Assembly: GCA_028282805.1 (NCBI GenBank)
Contig: JANQHD010000042.1
Location: 1 to 37,829, forward strand
Length of the DNA: 37,829 bases
Direction of reading: 5' to 3'
Source of the DNA: Phycisphaeraceae bacterium
GTDB taxonomy: Bacteria > Planctomycetota > Phycisphaerae > Phycisphaerales > Zrk34
A program made the translations under genes and the position numbers. Below are positions 2,171 through 37,370 of the stretch, one piece after another. Each line of letters begins with the position of its first letter. The stretch's first letter is position 1. A model generated the notes under the pieces. It saw nothing but the letters and a program-made list of their open reading frames with translations, was not told the DNA's origin and did not search any database.

Positions 2171-4780
2171 TCATTCTGTATCAACGGTCCTCAAGCTTTC
2201 AATCCCGCGGTCGTCGACGATCTTCACAGCGACACGCTTGTAATCGCCAAGTTCGAACGGCAGCGATTTTGTGCCCCGGTAGGCTTCGATTCTCTCCTGA
2301 TCGATCTCAGCCTTGAGGCTCTTGGCTAACCGCGCCCAGCCATCCTTCGCGCCGGCCATGGGGAAGAACACCTGCCGCGGGTAGAGGCTTCGCCCGTCGT
2401 AGTTGGTGTCCAGCATCCACATCGCGATCTTGTTCGTCTCCCCTGAATCTACCTTGCCCGTCCTCGGATTGTAGTAGTCGAAGCCGTGAACTTCGACTGT
2501 CCACTTGCCCTTGTCTTCGCCCCTGGCGATCTGGCGAAGCTCCACGTCGGGTTGGCCGATGAGCCAGAAGCTCTCATTGCTCGCCCGTTTCTTCTTCAAA
2601 TCTTCAGTCAACAAATCGGCATTCATCTGGACCTTGAGGAAAGTCATGCCTGTCTTCTCAGGTGTCAGTTCGTCAATGTCCTTCGCCGCTTCGGGATCGA
2701 ACTGGAACGCCGCGAAGACGAGCATGTCCGGCTTCGGATTCAACGTTCGCGCTTCATCCCACGCCTGCTCAACCTGCCGTTGCTCTAACGGGGCATGCTC
2801 CGGGCCGAACGAAACGACTACACGCCTGGCGTCGCCGTCCTTTGTCTCACCTGTGGCGTGCAGGAACCGCGTTCCGCCGAGCGGTTCGATGCGGCTAAAC
2901 TCGATCTGTTGGCCGCTTCGTCCGCGTATGCCTGTGGATTGGAGTTCGCGGCGCCACTCGTCTTGCCGTGCCGTAGAACCAGATCGAGCGAGCGACTTAT
3001 CGGTTGCCGGCTCGGTTTCAAGGTCATCCAACGGTCGAACAGAAATTGAAGGCACTGCCTCAACGGTGAAAGGGCCTGCCACGCGGACTTGAGAACTGTC
3101 GGGTTTCGGCTGGTCGTAGAGTGTTTCCTGATCTGCATACTTGCAAACGAGTGCCTGCGCTTCTTTTCGATTTAGTCCTTCTATCAGTTCTGGATTATTC
3201 GCGATCGACCGTAGCATGATGTGAGGTACGGTTCGATACACGAATCCACTTGCCACTCCTTCATCCTTATGAGCAAGTACGTAGTATTCATATGTCGCAG
3301 TCATCACTCGTTGCTTGGCTAGTGTCACTGCCACACGGGAAGTATCACATGTTATCCATCTGCGTCCCCACTGCTCGGCAATGTATGCAGTAGTGCCTGA
3401 TCCACATGTAGGATCGAACACAAGGTCGCCAGGGTCCGTACACAGCAGCATGCATCGCGCTGCAACCTTCAGATTGGTCTCGACTACATATCGCTTGTCA
3501 GACGCAAATCCGGCCGTAGTAGTGTCATCCCATAGATTTGTGATTGGGTAGACAGGAAAATCGTCGATGTACCTTACGTAGTAAAGACCAGTGCCAGTCG
3601 AAATCAGTCGGTTGGCGACGCGCAGCCGCGCCATGCCTTCTTCGTTGGTTTTCCATCGACTCTTGGATCCAGGAAGAAATTCCTTGCCATCCAGTTCTAC
3701 CGGGAACCAACATGCTGCCCCTTCACCTTTTTGTCGCCCAACACTTTGGCTTTGGAGATTGTCCAACCGAAAGATACGGGCATCTGGTGGCAAGGCTTCG
3801 GGAGACACGCGTTCCTTAGCCGTCATGCGGCGTCGTTCGCCATTCGCCAATTCCAGCCATGAGTAAGGACCGCGAACAGCCTCTGCGATGTTCTTGTCCT
3901 TGTGTAATGGACGAAATTTCAACAACTCTCTGTTCTTGGCGAAGAAGAGCAAATAGTCATGCGTCGCGCCAAGATACTGTCGCGTCGATCCACTTGTTGT
4001 AACAAAGGGAATCTGAGCCACGAAGGCATTCGCACCAAAAATCTCGTGGCAGATTTCACGTGCGTGATGCACATTTTCTTGGCCGATCTGCACAAAACAC
4101 GCGCCAGAGTCTGCTAAGAGTTCACGCGCTAGAAGCAGGCGATCGCGTAGATATGTGCAGTATGAATGGATGCCAAGTTCCCACGTGTCGCGGAAGGCAC
4201 GAAGCATCTCCGGTTCATGCGTTAGGTCTTCATCCTTGCCATCTGATACATCGCGTTTGTCAACGAACGGCTGAAAGTTAGACCCGTAACGAATACCATA
4301 AGGTGGATCAATGTACACCATTTGTACCTTGCCGGCCATGCCCTCTTTTTCTAGTAGGGAGTTCATAACCAGCAGCGAGTCGCCGGCGATGAGGCGGTTC
4401 GTCCAGTTATGCGGATGCTTGTAGAAGTCCAAAGCATCGCGTAACGGCGGATTCTCGTCGGGTGATTCGAACAGGGGCATCTGCGGATCGTGCCTGTTGC
4501 CATTGCGGGCGCGGACAGCCTCGATGATCGTCTGCGGATCGATCCGTTCGTGAACGTGCAGCGAGACAGTCGGTACTTCGAAGCTGGTCCGCTCAGCCTT
4601 ACCGGTCCAGACCAATTGCGGGTCAAGGTGCGGATCGTATTGGTAGGTGGTTTTGCTGTCGTCGTCCGGATCAGTCTTGGGCGTAACGAGGCCGACTGGC
4701 GGATTGTTCACTCGCTGTTTATCGGAGTGATCGTATTGTTCGATCGGACGTTTCTTAGACTTAGGCTTCTTCTTTGCCAT
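2171..4780 (-). CDS. Site-specific adenine DNA methyltransferase, type III Mod-like
   Basis: 869 residues. Motif IV DPPYG is at residues 158-162 and the SAM-binding motif FDPTCGSG at 455-462. This order (IV before I) is that of beta-class N6-adenine or N4-cytosine methyltransferases and matches Mod subunits of type III systems. The long segment between the motifs (about 290 residues) probably holds the target recognition region. The Lys-rich N-terminus (MAKKKPKSKKRP) may be disordered. It should methylate the recognition site and protect host DNA from the helicase-type subunit downstream. It is the first gene of a leftward operon with the genes at 1628-2137 and 1-1627. Local GC falls to about 40% in places, supporting horizontal acquisition. 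Confidence 0.92.
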   Translation of the reverse strand: MAKKKPKSKKRPIEQYDHSDKQRVNNPPVGLVTPKTDPDDDSKTTYQYDPHLDPQLVWTGKAERTSFEVPTVSLHVHERIDPQTIIEAVRARNGNRHDPQMPLFESPDENPPLRDALDFYKHPHNWTNRLIAGDSLLVMNSLLEKEGMAGKVQMVYIDPPYGIRYGSNFQPFVDKRDVSDGKDEDLTHEPEMLRAFRDTWELGIHSYCTYLRDRLLLARELLADSGACFVQIGQENVHHAREICHEIFGANAFVAQIPFVTTSGSTRQYLGATHDYLLFFAKNRELLKFRPLHKDKNIAEAVRGPYSWLELANGERRRMTAKERVSPEALPPDARIFRLDNLQSQSVGRQKGEGAACWFPVELDGKEFLPGSKSRWKTNEEGMARLRVANRLISTGTGLYYVRYIDDFPVYPITNLWDDTTTAGFASDKRYVVETNLKVAARCMLLCTDPGDLVFDPTCGSGTTAYIAEQWGRRWITCDTSRVAVTLAKQRVMTATYEYYVLAHKDEGVASGFVYRTVPHIMLRSIANNPELIEGLNRKEAQALVCKYADQETLYDQPKPDSSQVRVAGPFTVEAVPSISVRPLDDLETEPATDKSLARSGSTARQDEWRRELQSTGIRGRSGQQIEFSRIEPLGGTRFLHATGETKDGDARRVVVSFGPEHAPLEQRQVEQAWDEARTLNPKPDMLVFAAFQFDPEAAKDIDELTPEKTGMTFLKVQMNADLLTEDLKKKRASNESFWLIGQPDVELRQIARGEDKGKWTVEVHGFDYYNPRTGKVDSGETNKIAMWMLDTNYDGRSLYPRQVFFPMAGAKDGWARLAKSLKAEIDQERIEAYRGTKSLPFELGDYKRVAVKIVDDRGIESLRTVDTE

Positions 4781-5183: not shown

Positions 5184-5735
5184 TATGTGGAACTGTAATC
5201 ATCGACACATTTGCTCATGTGTTTGGCATAATGAATGACCTCGTGTCTTTGGGTAATACGGATATGCTTAAGCCGCAAGGTCCATGGGAAATCCGTGAAC
5301 TGATTGGCCACCCCGAATCACCTATCCCAGAAGCACATGGTGCTTATGTCATATCCATTCTTGAACACCGATACGACCCGGCATGTCATGGACACTCGCG
5401 ATTCATCTACATTGGTGGTGTGAAAGCAGGCGAGAATTCCACTCTCGCTAAACGTGTGGGCGAATGGTTTGGGGCTGCATTCGGATTCATGCCGTACCAC
5501 GGTCCAGGCCAAAGGTTATTTAGAGAGCGGCAGGCCCATGGGCTCTCGCCATGGGACATGGAATTGCGATGGTATCTGCACGATGATTCGGAGTGTTTGG
5601 AGAAAACACTTGGATAGCTATCGCGATGCCTTTGACAGCCGACCGCTTGGAAACAAGCAATGGAAACGTAAGGGATGTAGCACAGGACCCCACACAATAG
5701 AAGTCGCGATTCCGTGGGACGCTTTCTCAAAATGA
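5180..5735 (+). pseudogene. GIY-YIG nuclease-like gene broken by a +1 frameshift in an A-tract
   Basis: From the ATG at 5180 (GGAG at 5171-5174) the frame carries a GAYVI segment, then FIYIGG, then an Arg in LAKRVGEW: the GIY and YIG strands and the conserved Arg of the GIY-YIG family. It stops at 5617 after ECLEKTLG. The +1 frame continues the domain as LDSYRDAF...PLGNKQ to a stop at 5735. Reading AAA instead of AAAA at 5603-5606 joins them as ECLEKHLDSYRDAF, restoring the family's metal-binding Glu and the Asn of GNK in one protein of about 184 residues. The break is either a real inactivating mutation or a sequencing error. The role is probably a DNA endonuclease in the defence island; its partner is unknown. 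A start at 5150 is possible but has no ribosome binding site. Confidence 0.65.
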
Positions 5736-5948: not shown

Positions 5949-6002
5949 TTTCACTTAATATATTGATTTCACCGCGCGGTGAAACTATGATTTTAAGTGA
6001 AA
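5949..6002. promoter_or_regulatory. Operator unit A: nested inverted repeats
   Basis: A perfect 18-base palindrome (TTTCACCGC and its complement, 5967-5984) is flanked by TTTCACTT (5949-5956) and AAGTGAAA (5995-6002). Both pairs share the centre 5975.5. This gives four TTTCAC/GTGAAA half-sites, the outer ones 18 bases from the inner ones. The palindrome fills the spacer of the predicted promoter. AbiEi-type antitoxins are known to repress their own operons by binding inverted repeats, so the downstream wHTH protein is the likely ligand. Confidence 0.8.
5963..5991 (+). promoter_or_regulatory. Predicted sigma-70-type promoter of the AbiE-like cassette
   Basis: TTGATT (5963-5968) and TATGAT (5986-5991) are separated by 17 bases. 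They match the -35 (4/6) and -10 (5/6) consensus, and the operator A palindrome occupies the spacer. Transcription would start near 5998 and include operator unit B in the leader. Confidence 0.6.
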
Positions 6003-6015
6003 CATCTGCCGATGA

Positions 6016-6069
6016 TTTCACTGGTGTGCATACTTTTACCGCGTGGTGAAACAATGCTCAGGAGTGAAA
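6016..6069. promoter_or_regulatory. Operator unit B: second copy of the nested inverted repeat, ending at the start codon
   Basis: The inner near-palindrome (6034-6051) differs from unit A at 2 of 18 positions. The outer half-sites TTTCACT (6016-6022) and AGTGAAA (6063-6069) share its centre (6042.5). Geometry is the same as unit A, exactly 67 bases downstream. The last half-site overlaps the ribosome binding site GGAG (6061-6064) and ends one base before the GTG start at 6071, so a bound protein would also cover the translation start. Confidence 0.8.
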
Positions 6070-6070
6070 C

Positions 6071-7165
6071 GTGGACCGAGACTTGACGAGTGAAGCCATC
6101 ACCTGGATCGAGCGGGTCGGTCGCGAGACCGAGGCGTTCGAGGTGGTGGAGGACGGGTACGAACCGGACTACCGCAGCGATGCGATTGTGACCATCCGCC
6201 CCAGCGGGTTGCCCCACGTGGCGCTGTTGGTTGAGACAAAGAAGCGTCTAACGCCGCGCGAGGCGATGGCGTTGGCGCCCGTGCTTCGACGTCCCGATGA
6301 GCCGGGTATCCCGGTGGTGTGCTGCCCCTTCATCTCGCCGCGTGTGGCTGAGATTCTGACGGGCGAGCGGGTGGGCTACATCGACCAAGGTGGCAACGCC
6401 CGCATCGCGGGGCAGGGTTTTTTCCTACATGTCACTGGTCGGGATAATCCCGCGCCGGACACCAGGCCGCTGACGAATCCGTTCTCCCCGAAATCCAGTC
6501 GGATTGTCCGATTGATGCTGGAGGAGCCCGAGCGGCCGTGGCACGTGCAGGAATTGGCGCGCGAGGCGGATGTGAGCATCGGCTTGGTGTCCAAGGCCAA
6601 GCAGGCCCTTATGGAAGAGGGCTACCTGCGGTTCCTCGAAGGGTTCCTGCGCCTCAGCGATCCCGATGGTCTTCTGCAGAGCTGGTGTCGTTCGTATACG
6701 AACCGTGATGAGACGGTCAGCTACTACATGATGTCGGATGAGCGCGACTTAATCAAGCGACTGAGTTCCTGGTGTGAACGCCAGCAGGTGAAGTGGGCGC
6801 TGTGTGACTTCAGCGGCGCGTGGCGATTATCTCCGATGGTGCGCCACAAACTGACGAGCATCGCGGTACTGAACGTGGGCGCCGGAGAATGGCGACGCGA
6901 TTTACTGGAGCACCTGCGTGCCAAGCAAGTAGATAGCGGTGCGAATCTGTCGTTGCGCTTCACGGGTGATAAATACACCTTCTACAAGTCCCGCGCACTT
7001 GACGTAGTGACTGTGTTGTCACCCTTGCAGTTGTATCTTGACCTGAAGGTCAAGACGGGTCGGGGCGAAGAAGCAGCGGAGGCGCTTTACGATCAGCATA
7101 TGCGCGAGCATTTTGCGGCCTGCCGCAATGAGCACACCCACCGGAGGATTGAACATGAATGCTGA
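6071..7165 (+). CDS. AbiEi-like antitoxin/transcription regulator with PD-(D/E)XK-like N-terminal domain
   Basis: 364 residues from a GTG start with GGAG six bases upstream. Residues about 139-195 form a winged helix-turn-helix (helices HVQELAREADVS and GLVSKAKQALMEEG, wing YLRFLEGFLRL), as in AbiEi-family antitoxins that bind operator DNA. The N-terminal part has the order Asp37 ... Glu55-Thr-Lys57 (SDAIVTI, LLVETKK), then GYIDQGGNARI near 102-112, resembling a restriction-endonuclease-like fold; activity is unproven. The C-terminal half (200-340) would by family analogy neutralise the toxin. It overlaps the nucleotidyltransferase gene by 11 bases, typical of toxin-antitoxin pairs. The nested operators upstream fit autorepression. 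It is longer than many AbiEi proteins (about 200-280), hence 'AbiEi-like'. Confidence 0.75.
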   Translation: MDRDLTSEAITWIERVGRETEAFEVVEDGYEPDYRSDAIVTIRPSGLPHVALLVETKKRLTPREAMALAPVLRRPDEPGIPVVCCPFISPRVAEILTGERVGYIDQGGNARIAGQGFFLHVTGRDNPAPDTRPLTNPFSPKSSRIVRLMLEEPERPWHVQELAREADVSIGLVSKAKQALMEEGYLRFLEGFLRLSDPDGLLQSWCRSYTNRDETVSYYMMSDERDLIKRLSSWCERQQVKWALCDFSGAWRLSPMVRHKLTSIAVLNVGAGEWRRDLLEHLRAKQVDSGANLSLRFTGDKYTFYKSRALDVVTVLSPLQLYLDLKVKTGRGEEAAEALYDQHMREHFAACRNEHTHRRIEHEC

Positions 7166-7967
7166 GCGGGATCAACGCGACGTCGAAGTCGATGTGAGCC
7201 ATCGCGTGCTCGTCGATGTGCTGACGGTGCTGGGCGCTTTCGTTGAACAGATGGTCGTCGTGGGTGGCTGGGTACCGGAGTTGGTGTTCCCGGAGTCCGG
7301 TCACATCGGATCATTGGACGTGGACCTGGCCCTCGATGGCCGTCGCATCGAACCGGCGGCCTACAACACGATCCGGACGCGGTTGCTGGACGCTGGCTAC
7401 CGCGAGAAGACACCGGGCGTAACCAACATCTTCTTACGAGACGTGGAAGAGACCGGTCAGACCATCACGGTGAAACTCGACCTGATCACAGGCGAACACG
7501 CCGGATCGGTTTCCGAGAGGGCGCACGAGCATATACATGGGATGAACGTCTCGAAGTTGCGCGGGACGGACCTTGCGTTGGATCACGCCATCGACGTTCA
7601 GATATCAGGTGAACTGCCGGACGGTGGCGAGAAGCAGGTAAAGGCTCGTGTGGCGGCGATCCCAGCGTTCGTCTGTATGAAGGCCATCGCGATGATCGAG
7701 CGGAAGAAGCCGAAGGATGCGTACGACATCCTGTTTTGCCTGCGGCACTACGGCAACGGCCCGGAAGATCTGGCCAAAGGCCTGATGGTCATCGGCGACA
7801 GCCCGCTCGTGCGGGAAGCGGTCGATTCACTTCGGACGCATTTCGATTCGGAAAGAGCGGTCGGGCCAGTGTGGGCCGGCCAAGTGGCGGCCGAACACGG
7901 TGAAGATGAGGAAATTGCGGCCCGAGATGCTTACGAACGAGCGAAGTTACTACTCGAATCGGTATGA
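7155..7967 (+). CDS. AbiEii-like nucleotidyltransferase (probable toxin)
   Basis: 270 residues from the ATG at 7155 with GGAGG at 7143-7147; a longer frame from 7113 lacks such a site. The polymerase-beta-type nucleotidyltransferase motif is visible: VVGGW (35-39), then GSLDVDLAL with Asp55 and Asp57, and a third acidic strand VKLDL (Asp109). A later KKPKDAYDI segment (184-192) is typical of the AbiEii/AbiGii family. In characterised AbiE systems this protein is a nucleotide-transferring toxin that halts growth during phage infection. Here it overlaps the regulator gene and lies 22 bases before the ATPase gene, so all three are probably cotranscribed. The substrate (tRNA or other) cannot be read from the sequence. 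Confidence 0.8.
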   Translation: MNAERDQRDVEVDVSHRVLVDVLTVLGAFVEQMVVVGGWVPELVFPESGHIGSLDVDLALDGRRIEPAAYNTIRTRLLDAGYREKTPGVTNIFLRDVEETGQTITVKLDLITGEHAGSVSERAHEHIHGMNVSKLRGTDLALDHAIDVQISGELPDGGEKQVKARVAAIPAFVCMKAIAMIERKKPKDAYDILFCLRHYGNGPEDLAKGLMVIGDSPLVREAVDSLRTHFDSERAVGPVWAGQVAAEHGEDEEIAARDAYERAKLLLESV

Positions 7968-7989
7968 GACTCGTTGCGGAGGAGGCACC

Positions 7990-10551
7990 ATGCCAGAGCA
8001 TTCAGACGCCACAGGTTACCTTCTTGATCTTCGCGATGACATTGGCTTCGACTGGTTCAGTCTTGCCTGTGATCTCGCGATGATGTCGAATGATGGTTCT
8101 ATATCCGACGACGACAGGAAGCAATTGTGGCAGCAGTTCACCAGTGGGGCTGCGTATTCGCCACAATCAATCAGCCCTAGCTCGTCGTCTTCGTCCGCAT
8201 CACCGACCACCTATTCGTGTATTGAGTCGATCGGTGGCTTCCGCAATTTCCGACGCCTGACAGACGGCCTCGGAGTATCGTTTAGAAAACCACTGACCGT
8301 GATCTTTGGCACGAACGGTAGTGGCAAATCGAGTATCTGCGATGCCGTGCGGATCCTAGCTAGCGCGTCGCCGCCTCCCGCTGAGTACGCCAACATTGTG
8401 TCGCGCGACAAGCCCTTTGGTTTCGAATACAAATTTCGGGGCCAGACGCTTAGCCCATGGAACAATGGCGACGGATTTGGATTCCACGCGGGTACACTAC
8501 GCTACTTCGACACTACAATAGCGATCCGTCACCTTGAAGCCTCACTTGATGCTGGGCGAGTGGTGGAGCTATCGCCGTTCCGGCTAGAGGTTTTTGACTA
8601 CTGCAGGGCACTTGTGCGTGAACTCAAAGCCGTAGCGGACGGGAAGGCTAGAGAGAGCCGTGATGCGGCCCAGCTGCTCATCGACCCAGTTGTGAAGGGA
8701 TTCGGCGATCAACTCCCAGAAGGCGAGACGGCAATCACATCACTCGCGAAAGGCGATTGGAAGCCGTTGAAAACGGCGATCGAATCGCACAAACCGCTGA
8801 CTGATGAAGACGCGAAAGAGGCCAAGGAAGCGGAGGAGAAGATCGCACGCCTAAAGCAGGCGGGAAGCGAAGAGGGCCTGCGTGCCCTCAAGACAGAAGT
8901 GCAGATCCTCAAGCAACTCGCGACATGGCTTGAAGACTATACGAAGGCGGCCAGTGCCGAATCCGTCCGCGGCATCTTCAAGAAACAGGTGGATTTAACA
9001 GCACTGGAGCAACAGCGTTCCGTCTTGGTTAAGGCCGTTACGCCAACCGATCTCACGGCAGACTCGTTCATCCAGTTCCTCCAAATCGCTCACGAAGCAG
9101 CAAGCATTGGCGAGGACCGGGATGACTGCCCACTCTGCAGGCGTGTGTTAGACGCAGACGCGAGGGCAGTATTTGCGCAATACCGAGAGCTTGTTGCCAG
9201 CGAACTGTCATCCCGCATCGCGAACGCCGAAGTCGAGTTGAAGAAGGCATGGAACACCCTCGTCGCAGTAAAGCGACTCAAGTTACCCGAGCTCGCCAAC
9301 TACGAAGCATTGTTGGCTGATGACATTCGAGAAACTATCAAGCGGCAGTACGACACCCTTATCAAAGCAATACCGGTTAAGCGCGAAGATGCAACTGACG
9401 AACTTGCAGACGTGTATGACAAAGCCTGCAAAGTTGATGGCCCCAAGGAGACCGTCTCGGATGCTATCAAGTCGCGAGAGGCGAGCGTCGCGACCTCGCA
9501 AGAGGGTAGGGAGGCGAGAGAAAAGGAGATTGTCGCCGCTGAGGCACTGGTCCGTATGCAAAAGTACCGGCGCAACTTTGAGGACTGCTTGGACACGCTG
9601 AAGAAGATCATCAGCCACTTGGGGATGGCCGATACAATCGATCAGCTTGTCAAAATCACCGATTTCCCAACCGTCCTTCGGAAAATGTCAAACCTTGGCA
9701 AGACGGTACACGATGAGTTGGTGATCGACCAGTTCCGCCAGCGACTCGACGCCGAATACCAAGCACTCACAGGCAAGAAGATGGCGGACTTCGGGATTGA
9801 GCTAGTTAGGCGTGCATCAGATCAGGATGTAACCATTGACCCGCAGATCGGTGGCGCAGCAATACAACGCGTCTTGAGTGAAGGTGAGCAGAAGGTACAC
9901 GCCCTATCACTGTTTCTTGCCGAGGCGAGTGTCAATCCAACTGATGTGATCGTGCTCGACGATCCCGTTAACAGCTTCGACTACAATTACACCCGTACGT
10001 TCTGTGAGCGATTGCGTGATCTGATTCGAGCGACACCTGAACGGCAGTTCATAATCTTCACACACAGTTGGGAGTTTTTCTGCCGAATCCAAAACGTACT
10101 GAACAATTCTGGACTCAACAATAGTTACGAGATACAGGTCGTCGAGGAGTGCTCCACGGTGAAGCAGTACAAGGAGCGAATCGACGAGCTTAAGCAAGAT
10201 ATCCAGAATTCACTCGCCGCCAAGGCACTCTCGCGCCACGAGAAGGAGGATGTAGCGAAGTGGATCAGGATTCTCGCGGAAGCGGTGGTGAACGCTAGAG
10301 CCTTCAATGGCCAACGACAGCAGTACAAGCAAAGCGGCCAGAAGGTGTCAGACTTCACTGCCTGTACCAAGCTGGTCGCGCTAACGGAGAACGACGCGAT
10401 CAAGCTCAAGGATGTATTCGGCAGGATGAGTCCGCAAGAACACGACGACGTCAGCACTTTCTATACATCGCTAGACGTTGCTATCCTGCAGGCGAGTTAC
10501 GACGACGTACTCAAGGTCGAAGCGGACCTCATGGCGCGCAGGCCGAAATAG
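7990..10551 (+). CDS. SMC/RloC-like ATPase with zinc-hook motif
   Basis: 853 residues from the ATG at 7990, preceded by GGAGGAGG (7978-7985); the frame is open further upstream but without a better start. An N-terminal domain ends in a Ser-rich linker (about 59-70). Then come Walker A GTNGSGKS (107-114), a coiled-coil region with a CPLC motif (380-383) that could form a zinc hook, the ABC signature LSEGEQ (629-634), Walker B VIVLDDP (near 653) and a switch His in FTHSWEF. This is the layout of ABC-type SMC/Rad50-like ATPases of the AAA_13/RloC/PrrC kind. I could not identify the RloC/PrrC anticodon nuclease residues, so the C-terminal activity is unknown. Position after the AbiE-like pair suggests it senses infection or DNA ends for the toxin module. 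Confidence 0.8.
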   Translation: MPEHSDATGYLLDLRDDIGFDWFSLACDLAMMSNDGSISDDDRKQLWQQFTSGAAYSPQSISPSSSSSSASPTTYSCIESIGGFRNFRRLTDGLGVSFRKPLTVIFGTNGSGKSSICDAVRILASASPPPAEYANIVSRDKPFGFEYKFRGQTLSPWNNGDGFGFHAGTLRYFDTTIAIRHLEASLDAGRVVELSPFRLEVFDYCRALVRELKAVADGKARESRDAAQLLIDPVVKGFGDQLPEGETAITSLAKGDWKPLKTAIESHKPLTDEDAKEAKEAEEKIARLKQAGSEEGLRALKTEVQILKQLATWLEDYTKAASAESVRGIFKKQVDLTALEQQRSVLVKAVTPTDLTADSFIQFLQIAHEAASIGEDRDDCPLCRRVLDADARAVFAQYRELVASELSSRIANAEVELKKAWNTLVAVKRLKLPELANYEALLADDIRETIKRQYDTLIKAIPVKREDATDELADVYDKACKVDGPKETVSDAIKSREASVATSQEGREAREKEIVAAEALVRMQKYRRNFEDCLDTLKKIISHLGMADTIDQLVKITDFPTVLRKMSNLGKTVHDELVIDQFRQRLDAEYQALTGKKMADFGIELVRRASDQDVTIDPQIGGAAIQRVLSEGEQKVHALSLFLAEASVNPTDVIVLDDPVNSFDYNYTRTFCERLRDLIRATPERQFIIFTHSWEFFCRIQNVLNNSGLNNSYEIQVVEECSTVKQYKERIDELKQDIQNSLAAKALSRHEKEDVAKWIRILAEAVVNARAFNGQRQQYKQSGQKVSDFTACTKLVALTENDAIKLKDVFGRMSPQEHDDVSTFYTSLDVAILQASYDDVLKVEADLMARRPK

Positions 10552-32588: not shown

Positions 32589-35528
32589 TCACGGCCGGAT
32601 GCAGTCGTCGGTCACGAGCCGGTCGGGGTCCGGGTGGTTCGGCGGCACGCCCGGCGCGGTCACGTCTTCGCCACGTTCGATGCGGTCGGCCACGTCGAGG
32701 TTCAAATCGAGCAACTGCCCGAGCAGGTCTTTGTTGGCGTCGAAGCCGTAGGCCTTGAGCACGGCGGCGTCGAGCGCGGCGTGGGCGTCCTTGAGCGGGT
32801 TGCGGCCGGGCAGTTCCATCGTCCGGTACACCGCCCGCAGCCCGCCGGTGATGTTCTGTAACGCCTGCGCTCGCACCCGCCGCACTTCCCGCCCCGCCTC
32901 CGCCACCGCGTCGATATCCCTCACCGACGGCGACTGCGGCCAGGGGAAGGTGTCAAACACCGACTCGGGCGTGTAACGGAAATCGCTTTTGAGCTTCGAG
33001 CACTTGGCGACGAACCATTGCCAGTGAGCATCCGATTGCAACAGGCCGAAGCTGTAGTCGTCGTCGAAGGCGAATACCTCCATGGTTTTATCGGCACGAA
33101 TATCTGCATCGATAAAGGCCATAATTGGACGCTTGGTCACCTCGGCGCACGCGATGTAGCGTTGCCGATCACCAATTGCATCCAACATCTCCTTTCGTGC
33201 GCGAAAATGTTGCCACCAGGTTTTGAGCCAGTTTTGATCCTGTCCCGTCTCTCTACCGGTTTTCTGGCGTTCTGTGTTTGCAAGTTGCTCTACGTGGGGT
33301 AACACGTGTTCAGCAAGATAAGCAAAGGGTTGCGGATAAGACTTGGCGATCAAGATGTCCATGTCACGGAAATCAATCACGCATCGGTCTGGTTTGCCAT
33401 CTGTCAGCATAATCCGGCCGACCATCGAAGGGTGGATAATATCTCGGTTACGCCTGTCCGCTTCGATCATCGAATCGGCTTGTCCTTCTGTTAGCTTAAA
33501 CCCTGCGTGTCGCGGGTACTGGCCATTGAAAACGACTTGTGGCTCGGTGTTGCACCGCAAGATCAAGGCCCCCGTCACATCGGTTTGATCCGACAGCGCG
33601 GCGTTGATGTGGTCGGCTTGGCGGTGGTCGAGTTCGTAGTCCTTGGTAGCGGGGCCGTCACCGCGTTTGCGTTTTTTCTTGGCGCCGGGGGTGGGGTCGG
33701 TCTTGAACCAGAGCTTCTTCTTTTCAGGGATGAGCAGCGCATCGGGGTCGGTGTCGGGGGCGTGTTTCACCCAGTTGGCGATGGAGACGTGGACGTTGGC
33801 TTCGCCGGACCAGGGCTGGTTGTCGACGGCGTCGACGACGGTGCCGGAGGCGGCGATGTGGTCGAGGCCGCCCTCGCGTGACTTGTTGTTGCGGATGTTC
33901 TGCGTGCCGACGAGGCCGGCGCGTCCGGCGAAGGGGGCGTCGGGGGTGCAGGGGGCGAGGTGGTCGTGGGTGCGTCGGAACCAGTAGACACAGTAGTCGG
34001 CCATGCCGGGCACGCCGGGGTAGAGGGCGCGGACGGCGTTGACGTAGTCTGCGCCGCGCTCGGGCTTGAGGCGTTTGGCGCCGAGGAACGGCGGGTTGCC
34101 GATGACCACGTCGGCGTCGGGCCAGGCGGTGGGGTGGCCTTGTTCATCGATCAGCGCATCGGCGCACTGGAAGTTGTCGTCGAGGTTGTCGAGCGGCAGG
34201 GCGGGCTCGTCGGAGTGCAGCTCGTCGATGGCCAGCTTGTGGGCGAGCATCATGGTGACCTTGGCCAGTTCGACGGCGAAGGGGTTGATGTCCATGCCGA
34301 AGAACTGTTTGGTGGTCACGAAAGACAGCCGCATCTGGTCGGCGTCCTGGCGCTTGGAGAGTTCGGCGATGCGGTCGTTGAGCTTCTTTTCGAGGCGCTT
34401 GAGTTCTCGGTAGGCGAGGTAGAGGAAGTTGCCCGAGCCGCAGGCGGGGTCGAGCACGCGGTAGGTGTGCATGCGTTCCTGTAGCTCGCGGAGGCGTTTG
34501 AGGGTTTTTGCGCCGTCGATCAGGCGCTCCCAAGGCTCGACGATGGTGGGGCGGATGATCTTGTAGATGTCGACGGCGGAGGTGAAGTGCGCGCCGTAGG
34601 CGTGGCGCTCGTCCTGGTTGCAGGTCTGTTCGAAGATGGTGCCGAAGATCTCGGGGCGGACCATGGACCAATCGTCTTCCGCGGCCTTCTTGATCTGGTT
34701 GAGTTCGTCGGGGTGGAGCTCGACGTGGGCGGGGTCGGCGAAGATGCCGCCGTTGAAGTAGGGGATGCCCTTAAAGCGGCCGCCCCGTCGGAGGTCGGGC
34801 TCGTTCATGGCTTCGAACAGGCCGCCGATCAAGTCGTAGCTGTCCTGGGGTTGCTTGCAGTCGGCGACGAGGCGTTCGATGGTGTATTGGTCGAGCAGGC
34901 CGATGTCTTCGGCGAAGAGCGCGACGAGCAGTTGGAGGACGAAGCGTTGCGCCTTGTCGTGGCCGACGTCTTGGCGGACGCTGAGCTTGTTAAAGAGCAC
35001 GGCGAGGCGTTCGGCGGCCTCGCGTGTGACCTTTTCGTTGTCGTTGCCGAAGACGGGTGTCTCGTGGGTGGGGAACAGGAACGCGAGCGGGCCGTAACGC
35101 CGGGGCAGTTCGGCCAAAGGTACACGGTCGACGGGGGTATCGATCTGAACGTCGAAGTCGTAGACCCAGACCTCGTCGAAGTTGCACAGCAGGACGTAGT
35201 GCGGTCGGCCGGGTGTGAGGCGGGTCCAGTAGTCGAAGGCCTGGCGGTGGTGGCGGGCGAGGTCTTCGCCGCGTTTCTTCATCTCGACCAGGACGTGCGG
35301 CTTCCAGACGTAATCGGCGAAGGCGGTGCCGCCGCCGTCTTCGCGCGCCTTGCGGATGCGGAACTCGGGGGTGCCGCCGACGTCGAGGCAGCCGGCGTGG
35401 CCGAACGCCTGGAAGAGGCGCTCGAGGAATATCTGTGCTTCGCCCTTTTCGTCGCCTTTGGTGTTGGCGCTGACCCAATCGACGAATTGCTCGAGGCGTT
35501 CGGTACGGTCCGGGTCTGGTGGGGTCAT
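32589..35528 (-). CDS. Type IIL restriction-modification enzyme, MmeI family
   Basis: 979 residues from ATG 35528, with AGGGA upstream. A longer frame to 37244 is antisense to the permease and not real. The N-terminal nuclease site is Asp72 ... Glu82-Met-Lys84 (FADYVWKPHVLVEMKK), the same spacing as the Asp70/Glu80/Lys82 site I recall for MmeI. A helical spacer follows, then SAM motif I DPACGSGNF (360-368) and motif IV NPPF (478-481), a gamma-class adenine methyltransferase. The target recognition domain lies about 640-850. Such single-chain enzymes cut and methylate, modifying one strand of the site. GC falls from about 70% to about 50% over the recognition domain, suggesting exchange of specificity. 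Confidence 0.88.
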   Translation of the reverse strand: MTPPDPDRTERLEQFVDWVSANTKGDEKGEAQIFLERLFQAFGHAGCLDVGGTPEFRIRKAREDGGGTAFADYVWKPHVLVEMKKRGEDLARHHRQAFDYWTRLTPGRPHYVLLCNFDEVWVYDFDVQIDTPVDRVPLAELPRRYGPLAFLFPTHETPVFGNDNEKVTREAAERLAVLFNKLSVRQDVGHDKAQRFVLQLLVALFAEDIGLLDQYTIERLVADCKQPQDSYDLIGGLFEAMNEPDLRRGGRFKGIPYFNGGIFADPAHVELHPDELNQIKKAAEDDWSMVRPEIFGTIFEQTCNQDERHAYGAHFTSAVDIYKIIRPTIVEPWERLIDGAKTLKRLRELQERMHTYRVLDPACGSGNFLYLAYRELKRLEKKLNDRIAELSKRQDADQMRLSFVTTKQFFGMDINPFAVELAKVTMMLAHKLAIDELHSDEPALPLDNLDDNFQCADALIDEQGHPTAWPDADVVIGNPPFLGAKRLKPERGADYVNAVRALYPGVPGMADYCVYWFRRTHDHLAPCTPDAPFAGRAGLVGTQNIRNNKSREGGLDHIAASGTVVDAVDNQPWSGEANVHVSIANWVKHAPDTDPDALLIPEKKKLWFKTDPTPGAKKKRKRGDGPATKDYELDHRQADHINAALSDQTDVTGALILRCNTEPQVVFNGQYPRHAGFKLTEGQADSMIEADRRNRDIIHPSMVGRIMLTDGKPDRCVIDFRDMDILIAKSYPQPFAYLAEHVLPHVEQLANTERQKTGRETGQDQNWLKTWWQHFRARKEMLDAIGDRQRYIACAEVTKRPIMAFIDADIRADKTMEVFAFDDDYSFGLLQSDAHWQWFVAKCSKLKSDFRYTPESVFDTFPWPQSPSVRDIDAVAEAGREVRRVRAQALQNITGGLRAVYRTMELPGRNPLKDAHAALDAAVLKAYGFDANKDLLGQLLDLNLDVADRIERGEDVTAPGVPPNHPDPDRLVTDDCIRP

Positions 35529-35624
35529 GTCGTTTTCCCTGGGAAGCCGGGGCCAATGGTAGCACGAACCTAACGGTGCGTGTGATTTGCGGGCCGGCGG
35601 GGCAGCGCCCACAATGCTTGGCGC

Positions 35625-37370
35625 ATGAAGCCCGCGACGTTCAGCAAGTACGCGATCTACCTCGGCTGCCTGGCGGTGCTGGTGGTGTTCCTCATCGGGC
35701 CCATCGCGCTGACCGTGAAGGACGCGTTCATCGAACGCGGCGAGGCCGGCTCGAGCTTCACGCTCGCCTACGTCTTCGACGTCGTGCGCGACCCGGTCAT
35801 GCGCGACGGGCTGGTCAACTCGCTGCTGATCGCGGCGGTGACCACGGCGCTGTGTCTGGCGATCGCGCTGCCGTTGGCGTCGATCGCCACGCGCTACAAC
35901 TTCCCGGGCAAGGCGATCTTCTCGGCGTTGCTGCTGATCCCGCTGATCCTGCCGCCGTTCGTGGGGGCGATCGGCCTGCGGGCGCTGCTGGGGCGCATGG
36001 GCTCGCTCAACACGCTGGCCATCGACGCGGGCCTGGTCGACCCCCACGACCCGCTCGACTTCCTCGGCGGGGCGCGGTTCTGGGGCGTGGTGATCACCGA
36101 GGCGCTGCACCTGTACCCGATCATCTACCTGAACGTGACCGCCGCGCTGGCGAACCTCGACCCGGCGATGGAACAGGCGGCCGACAACCTGGGCGCGTCG
36201 CGTTGGACGCGCTTCCGCCGGGTGGTGCTGCCGTTGATCCTGCCGGGGGTGTTCGCGGGTTCGACGATCGTGTTCATCTGGTCGTTCACGGAGCTGGGCA
36301 CGCCGCTGATGTTCGACTACACGACCGTCGCGCCCGTGCAGATCTTCTGGGGCATCCAGGAGATCGGCTCGCCGCGCCCGTTCGCGCTGGTGGTGGTGGT
36401 GCTGGCGATCAGCGCGGCGTTGTACATGCTGGGCAAGTTCACGCTCGGGCGGCGCAGCTACGCGGCGACGACGCGGGCGTCGACGCAATCGCTGACCACC
36501 GACCTGCCGTGGGGCAAGGGGTTGATCGCGCTGACGCCGTTCGCGCTGATCACGTTCCTCGCGGTGCTGCCGCACATCGGCGTGGTGCTGGCGTCGGTGG
36601 CCGAGCCGGGCACGTGGTACCGGTCGGTCTGGCCGGAGAAGCTGACGCTCGAGCACTACGTCGGCGAGCAGGGGGCGCTGGCGCACCCGCTGGCGTCGGG
36701 CTCGATCCGCAACTCGCTGATCCTGTCGGTGCTGGCGATGAGCGTCGACATCGTGCTGGGCTTGACGATCGCTTACCTGGTGGTGCGCGGCAGGGTGTTC
36801 GGCGGGCGCGTGCTCGACGCGTTGGCGATGCTGCCGTTGGCCGTGCCGGGGCTGGTGATGGCGTTCGGCTACGTGGCGATGAGCCAGACGGTGAGCGGCT
36901 GGTTCGACGACCCGCCGCGCTGGTTGCAGGTCGTGGGCGAGAACCCGAACCCGATGGTGTTCCTGGTCATCGCGTACGCGGTGCGGCGGCTGCCGTACGT
37001 GGTGCGCAGCGCGTCGGCGGGGCTGGAGCAGACGCCGGTGGATTTGGAAGAGGCGTCGCTGATCCTGGGCGAGAGCAAGCTGGGCACGATCCGCAAGGTG
37101 GTGATGCCGCTGATCATGGCGAACCTGATCGCGGGCGGGCTGCTGGCGTTCAGCTTCGCGATGCTGGAGGTGAGCGACTCGTTGATCCTGGCGCAGACGC
37201 CGCAGCACTTCCCGATCACCAAGGCGATCTACGAGCTGTTCCAACGGCTGGGCGACGGGCCGAACGTCGCCAGCGCGATGGGCGTGTGGGGCATGGTGCT
37301 ATTGGCGTTAACGCTGATCGGTGCATCGTTGATGCTGGGCAAAAAACTGGGCGCGATCTTTCGCATCTGA
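35625..37370 (+). CDS. Fe3+/thiamine-type ABC importer, fused double permease (FbpB-like)
   Basis: 581 residues with about 12 hydrophobic segments. Two BPD_transp_1 units each carry an EAA loop for ATPase contact: EQAADNLGASRWTRFRRVVLP (about 184-204) and EEASLILGESKLGTIRKVVMP (about 486-506). Fused double permeases are typical of FbpB and ThiP importers. The partner ATPase and binding protein lie at 27985-30727, so the transporter locus is split by the three reverse-strand genes at 30733-35528. The start at 35625 is divergent from the MmeI-type gene with 96 bases between. Confidence 0.9.
   Translation: MKPATFSKYAIYLGCLAVLVVFLIGPIALTVKDAFIERGEAGSSFTLAYVFDVVRDPVMRDGLVNSLLIAAVTTALCLAIALPLASIATRYNFPGKAIFSALLLIPLILPPFVGAIGLRALLGRMGSLNTLAIDAGLVDPHDPLDFLGGARFWGVVITEALHLYPIIYLNVTAALANLDPAMEQAADNLGASRWTRFRRVVLPLILPGVFAGSTIVFIWSFTELGTPLMFDYTTVAPVQIFWGIQEIGSPRPFALVVVVLAISAALYMLGKFTLGRRSYAATTRASTQSLTTDLPWGKGLIALTPFALITFLAVLPHIGVVLASVAEPGTWYRSVWPEKLTLEHYVGEQGALAHPLASGSIRNSLILSVLAMSVDIVLGLTIAYLVVRGRVFGGRVLDALAMLPLAVPGLVMAFGYVAMSQTVSGWFDDPPRWLQVVGENPNPMVFLVIAYAVRRLPYVVRSASAGLEQTPVDLEEASLILGESKLGTIRKVVMPLIMANLIAGGLLAFSFAMLEVSDSLILAQTPQHFPITKAIYELFQRLGDGPNVASAMGVWGMVLLALTLIGASLMLGKKLGAIFRI

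Follow-up and report, generated by a model that had tools for sequence, protein, structure and literature searches.

A four-box repeat of fixed geometry as the probable autoregulatory operator of AbiEi_2-family antitoxin genes

INTRODUCTION

What reads a pair of elaborate repeats that lie over the putative promoter and ribosome binding site of a toxin-antitoxin-like cassette? The question is raised by a contig of a Phycisphaeraceae bacterium (GCA_028282805.1, contig JANQHD010000042.1), of which 37,829 nt were analyzed; we call this whole stretch the window, and all coordinates refer to it. A preliminary description had proposed that the repeats are bound by a 364-residue winged helix-turn-helix (wHTH) protein encoded immediately downstream. 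We followed this proposal from the repeats themselves to their occurrence in related loci, and from there to the residues that may read them.

RESULTS

Two units upstream of a putative toxin-antitoxin cassette

Unit A (5949-6002) consists of the boxes TTTCAC (5949-5954), TTTCAC (5967-5972), GTGAAA (5979-5984), and GTGAAA (5997-6002) and reads TTTCAC ttaatatattga TTTCAC cgcgcg GTGAAA ctatgattttaa GTGAAA. Unit B (6016-6069) consists of TTTCAC (6016-6021), TTTTAC (6034-6039), GTGAAA (6046-6051), and GTGAAA (6064-6069) and reads TTTCAC tggtgtgcatac TTTTAC cgcgtg GTGAAA caatgctcagga GTGAAA. Both follow the 54-bp layout TTTCAC-N12-TTTCAC-N6-GTGAAA-N12-GTGAAA, with boxes starting at 0, 18, 30, and 48 and with dyad centers between 5975 and 5976 (unit A) and between 6042 and 6043 (unit B). 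The centers are 67 bp apart, which leaves 13 bp between the units. Seven of the eight boxes are exact, the sole deviation being a single mismatch in the box at 6034-6039, and the units score 18/18 and 17/18. The preliminary description had claimed two 54-base units of identical geometry, each with an inner 18-base palindrome and, around the same center, outer half-sites 18 bases away; the sequence agrees in every respect. When the region was shuffled 300 times with dinucleotides preserved and about 230 geometries were tried on each shuffle, the best four-box score was 16. Likewise, 100 shuffles yielded no copy of the half-motif TTTCAC-N12-TTTCAC, of which the window has 3. No further unit scoring at least 15 was found elsewhere in the 37.8-kb window, nor any other match to the pattern in the 3.9-Mb genome.

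The units overlie the signals expected to control the cassette. A tentative plus-strand promoter, TTGATT-17-TATGAT (5963-5991), matches at 9 of 12 positions, with 0.6 such matches expected by chance. The inner palindrome of unit A (5967-5984) covers the last two bases of its -35 element and 16 of the 17 spacer bases, so the earlier claim that the unit fills this spacer holds to within one base, for a promoter that is itself weak. Downstream, unit B behaves as had been described: its last box is overlapped by the ribosome binding site AGGAG (6060-6064, plus strand, assigned from sequence), and one base separates its end at 6069 from the GTG start codon at 6071.

Three plus-strand genes follow. 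Gene 1 (6071-7165) encodes a 364-residue repressor or antitoxin of the AbiEi_2 family (PF09952, 34.7 bits against a cut-off of 21). Gene 2 (7155-7967), which overlaps it by 11 bp, encodes a 270-residue AbiEii-type nucleotidyltransferase and putative toxin (PF08843, E 9e-7, above the cut-off) with a DxD motif in GSLDVDLAL. An AbiEii/DUF1814 nucleotidyltransferase gene directly downstream of an AbiEi-type gene is the arrangement of an AbiE type IV toxin-antitoxin system, and a DxD-bearing second open reading frame also comes after the AbiEi_2 gene in most homologous loci. Gene 3 (7900-10551), whose true start may be the ATG at 7990, encodes an SMC/RloC-like ATPase of the candidate defense family PDC-S06 (AAA_13), matching the PADLOC model across nearly its full length (E 3.1e-52). 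On the minus strand, an N6/N4 DNA methylase gene (2171-4780) lies upstream of the cassette, and the other end of the contig carries a type IIG restriction-modification gene (32589-37244).

The gene 1 product has three domains. An AlphaFold2 model built on 48 alignment rows (pLDDT 92.8) contains a canonical wHTH at residues 139-196, with pLDDT above 90, that structurally matches wHTH proteins and has a weak IclR-type similarity. Residues 222-349 (6734-7120) form a nucleotidyltransferase-like C-terminal domain that resembles the toxin MenT1 (8rr5, a moderate Z of 8.8, rmsd 3.2, 123 residues aligned) and ANT(2'') (4wqk, Z 8.5; also 5kqj and 5uvd). This domain apparently lacks the DxD pair and is possibly a pseudo-enzyme copy of the fold of the partner toxin. 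Residues 1-116 (6071-6430) match restriction-type nuclease folds (PaqCI, Z 8.5; 1y88, 7.7; EndoMS, 7.5). These Z values are weak by themselves; we call the domain PD-(D/E)XK-like because a D...ExK motif is conserved (D37 in 47 of 48 rows, E55 in 37, K57 in 38) and because some family members match Mrr_cat or NucS_C by sequence. Of the aligned homologs, 44 of 48 match PF09952, and a sequence search of the PDB with the family profile gave no matching chain. The extra N-terminal domain departs from the two-domain plan of AbiEi antitoxins, a wHTH and a C-terminal domain only, and places gene 1 on a branch of its own, outside canonical AbiEi.

Conservation of the geometry across homologous loci

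Homologs of gene 1 are encoded in 36 of the 397 genomes of the window's class; a phylum-wide search adds more, and 75 plasmid records, mostly from Pseudomonadota, hold others. Scans of genome and viral contigs with the window protein alone returned no relatives, and neither did an alignment-based scan of the viral contigs. The regions upstream of 69 loci were examined on a grid of inner spacers of 4 to 24 and center gaps of 0 to 20 (441 combinations, score of at least 15). The geometry of the window (12,6) was found in 47 of 69 loci; the median for all 441 geometries was 0, and (12,8) and (12,4), which rank next, arise from the same palindrome by a shift of one base per arm. About one third of these homologs have no clear four-box unit. 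The letters vary from locus to locus (TTTCAC, TTTCAG/A, GTTCAC, GTTGAC, TTTTCC) within the fixed geometry, such that L006 has TTTCAC four times, L024 GTTGAC four times, L049 and L055 GTTCAC four times, and L064 TTTTCC four times. Units are often duplicated, mostly 65 to 77 bp apart. Conservation of half-sites in related loci had been set beforehand as the test of the proposal, and what is conserved is the geometry, with changing letters. Upstream of canonical AbiEi_4 genes from the same phylum, the four-box layout appeared in 1 of 30 cases, and the repeats seen there were varied two-arm ones. From these sequence comparisons, the four-box build is typical of the AbiEi_2 family rather than peculiar to this locus, and the computation establishes that the repeats are maintained elements.

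The overlap with expression signals is also shared. In 119 unique loci, sigma-70-like pairs cluster inside the left arm of the unit, with the -10 box lying 12 to 18 bases ahead of the center, and the downstream unit's fourth box, RTGAAA, is in frame and supplies the first possible start codon plus a lysine in 50 of 80 loci under a heuristic choice of start. In the window, the fourth box of unit B is out of frame, with the GTG one base further on. In the closest relatives, L005 and L006, TATAAT occupies the right arm, at the place corresponding to TATGAT in unit A. The closest-relative loci L287 (genome G376, 4187-4240) and L288 (genome G057, 5622-5675) have a single unit with TATAAT in the right arm and a GTG few bases downstream, so their transcripts would be nearly leaderless. 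Position thus supports an operator that overlays the core promoter across the family and, with it, the ribosome binding site or start codon.

The association can be recovered from DNA alone. We searched about 85,000 species genomes, leaving protein data aside, for the 20-base skeleton TTTCA-N13-TTTCA-N8-TGAAA-N13-TGAAA, which was found at a minimum of 118 loci. Among the 118 matches listed, at least 81 are followed, within 900 bp and in the right orientation, by the start of an AbiEi_2-family domain; these include each of the 15 two-unit loci listed, whose units are 65 to 76 bp apart, and inspection showed that a further match (L086) encodes an AbiEi_2-like protein. About 36 of the matches listed have no adjoining AbiEi_2 gene; several are chance occurrences in coding sequence, and some are unexplained. 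Record titles name Pseudomonadota, Acidobacteria, Verrucomicrobia, Chloroflexi, Planctomycetes, Gemmatimonadota, Nitrospirae, Elusimicrobia, Armatimonadetes, Patescibacteria, and others, many of them metagenome-assembled genomes. Within the window's class, with one mismatch allowed, 13 of 397 genomes matched and 15 of 18 places adjoin an AbiEi_2 gene, against no matches for a reversed control pattern in the same genomes. Only one of 93 matches in viral contigs adjoins such a gene, and the viral matches are mostly chance in AT-rich DNA.

Some units stand apart from the family. Seven convincing four-box units have no recognizable adjoining AbiEi_2 gene (L120, L135, L157, L158, L161, L182, and L190); they may represent operators left without a partner gene, the traces of decayed cassettes, or elements that control other genes. 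In genome G132, which holds locus L285, extra units occur at 5691 and 8341, and genome G103 has an orphan (contig C115, 67521); these lie beside AbiEii-like open reading frames or alone in a syntenic place. We considered a regulon for them and dropped that reading, as their neighborhood is shared and they resemble remnants, possibly of excised or decayed cassettes.

Covariation between the recognition helix and the boxes

We aligned the helix after the turn (residues 166-183 of protein P0001) with the boxes, and the two change together, subfamily by subfamily. In 56 representatives below 60% identity with TTTCA-type inner boxes, lysine or arginine at residue 175 accompanied C as the sixth letter of both inner boxes in 12 of 13 unmixed cases, and asparagine accompanied A, G, or T in 33 of 34 (12:1 versus 1:33; Fisher 3e-9). 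No other column of the protein has a corrected mutual information as high as that of column 175. Because relatedness can imitate covariation, we built a tree without residues 166-184; over its 164 branches there were 12 residue changes and 14 box changes, of which 9 coincided (Fisher 2e-9). The window protein fits the rule, with K175 and inner boxes that end in C. The sequences thus support a first predicted residue-to-base contact, that of helix residue 175 with box letter 6. At the outer boxes, the sixth letter covaries weakly with residue 175, and across all loci the inner boxes tend to TTTCA[G/A]C and the outer boxes to TTTCACT. The four sites are therefore not equivalent: the outer sites share the core of the inner sites and not their whole context.

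DISCUSSION

Operator reading and proposed mechanism

Our results suggest that gene 1, which encodes a wHTH repressor or antitoxin of the AbiEi_2 family, is autoregulated through these repeats as its operator, a reading to which we assign a probability of about 0.87. It rests on the occurrence of the same four-box layout before the same repressor gene in many phyla, while the letters change together with the helix that would read them. On this evidence, the operator assignment made in the preliminary description is strongly supported. We propose that one wHTH reads each 6-bp box (TTTCAC/GTGAAA) as a half-site, so that each 54-bp unit would offer four dyad-symmetric sites in two 24-bp bipartite arms. 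Four boxes with equal cores are suggestive of four protomers per unit, which would be the simplest way to fill it. Unit A would block RNA polymerase at the core promoter; unit B, which extends over the ribosome binding site to the start codon, would block promoter clearance or elongation and add affinity. Repression would keep both the AbiEii nucleotidyltransferase and the PDC-S06 ATPase in check, and loss of the repressor through infection, curing, or competing DNA would release genes 2 and 3. The preliminary description had gone on to cooperative binding of a multimer and tight control of a toxic operon; tetramer binding, cooperativity, and operon toxicity are points that we infer, as are the occupancy number, the direction of regulation, and the physiological trigger.

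Other explanations fit parts of the data. Control could act on RNA, with a leader hairpin formed by the inner palindrome and outer arms of unit B hiding the ribosome binding site and the palindrome of unit A serving as a terminator-like stem. The predicted leader fold does pair 6016-6022 with 6063-6069, which hides AGGAG, and the palindrome of unit A does score as terminator-like. Yet the folding of the leader is unexceptional (z -1.29, with 25 of 200 shuffles as good), and a hairpin would not require that the outer boxes be identical to the inner ones, that a unit A precede the transcript, or that the boxes covary with a protein helix. In many relatives, moreover, a promoter located within the unit means that the transcript contains little of that unit, and we regard control by RNA as very improbable. 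Recognition of the boxes by some other regulator of the host, with no relation to gene 1, would accommodate the few matches that lie away from any AbiEi_2 gene, but it would leave unexplained why the geometry tracks AbiEi_2 genes across many phyla and plasmids, why the letters follow the recognition helix, and why the window genome has no other copy of the pattern. We give this idea scarcely any weight.

A variant of the operator reading itself deserves more attention. One protomer might occupy each 24-bp arm, with its wHTH on the inner box and another surface, such as the PD-(D/E)XK-like domain, on the outer box, so that a dimer would fill each unit. Published AbiEi and Rv2827c bind as one monomer per 23-bp repeat (PMC7319586), and inner and outer boxes differ at letters 6 and 7, only the inner letter tracking residue 175. 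However, the first five letters are equal in inner and outer boxes and change together between subfamilies (GTTGAC, GTTCAC, or TTTTCC at all four boxes), which makes reading of both boxes by the same wHTH the simplest account. We consider the dimer somewhat unlikely, while taking it seriously. A bolder extension of the autoregulatory operator is that widespread tripartite regulators (PD-(D/E)XK fold, winged helix, and nucleotidyltransferase-like domain) assemble on the four-box platform before defense operons, their own nuclease domain being a regulated effector, such that release from the operator during infection would link derepression of toxin and ATPase to DNA cleavage. This is speculative, and we think it doubtful.

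Some homologous cassettes precede BREX (BrxL), type I restriction (HsdR), TIR, AbiJ-like, or ATPase defense genes, and for that reason the AbiEi_2/AbiEii module is probably a regulatory or addiction front end for different defense genes. In six loci (L125, L185, L186, L126, L113, and L133), the gene pair is followed directly by BrxL, HsdR, TIR-domain, or AbiJ-domain genes. Together, our findings derive, from what was a curiosity of a single locus, a regulatory rule that can be tested in a large and barely studied antitoxin family. The DNA geometry is fixed, a DNA pattern is enough to find AbiEi_2/AbiEii modules, some of them before defense genes, and direct tests are possible of how such cassettes stay silent and of the number of protomers per unit, four or two.

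Comparison with known systems

Multi-repeat autoregulation of AbiEi-type antitoxins is known. In the literature searched, which covered few subscription journals, we found no account of the four-box unit, of how widely it is conserved, of its absence upstream of AbiEi_4 genes in the same phylum, or of the helix-box code. Tetrameric IclR-family regulators such as TtgV offer a parallel: their multi-box operators are bound by tetramers, and helix and operator are correlated (PMC8222616, citing Lu et al. 2010). Gene 1 shares with them the multi-box operator and a wHTH with weak IclR-type similarity, but it has no IclR effector domain, and box spacing, symmetry, and partner genes differ from those described there. 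The likeness is best taken as an analogy of mechanism, not as membership.

AbiEi itself is closer. The published DALI matches of AbiEi include 5KQJ and 5UVD (PMC7319586), so that it has these matches and a nucleotidyltransferase-like C-terminal domain in common with gene 1. The operator of AbiEi in S. agalactiae and S. suis consists of two 23-bp repeats 3 bp apart (PMC7319586, PMC11062541), and the S. agalactiae protein binds as a monomer with positive cooperativity (PMC7319586). As at gene 1, these accounts describe inverted arms of similar length in the promoter, a wHTH antitoxin, and an AbiEii toxin gene downstream. In contrast to the single arm pair that they describe, units A and B have four 24-bp arms, each internally repeated, and not two 23-bp inverted repeats at a 3-bp interval.

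The closest match in layout is Rv2827c, the M. tuberculosis homolog of AbiEi, whose promoter carries four inverted repeats of about 23 bp between -1 and -131 relative to the start codon that are bound with negative cooperativity (PMC7319586). Here, as at gene 1, four arms in two pairs overlap the promoter of an autoregulated antitoxin with a DUF1814 nucleotidyltransferase partner, and the spans are nearly equal (about 122 bp for Rv2827c and 121 bp for units A and B). The comparison is one of layout, and the gaps differ: the 23-bp arms of Rv2827c are separated by 13, 4, and 13 bp, and the 24-bp arms of units A and B by 6, 13, and 6 bp. Rv2827c has two domains, whereas gene 1 has the additional nuclease-like domain, and a search for PF11459, the branch of Rv2827c, gave no match, control genomes included. 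The earlier claim that the operator is more elaborate than the inverted repeats known for AbiEi therefore gives way in regard to number, because Rv2827c already has four repeats, and survives in regard to internal build, which differs and was met upstream of just 1 of 30 canonical AbiEi_4 genes: unlike in Rv2827c, each arm in units A and B carries one 6-mer twice in direct orientation, 18 bp apart.
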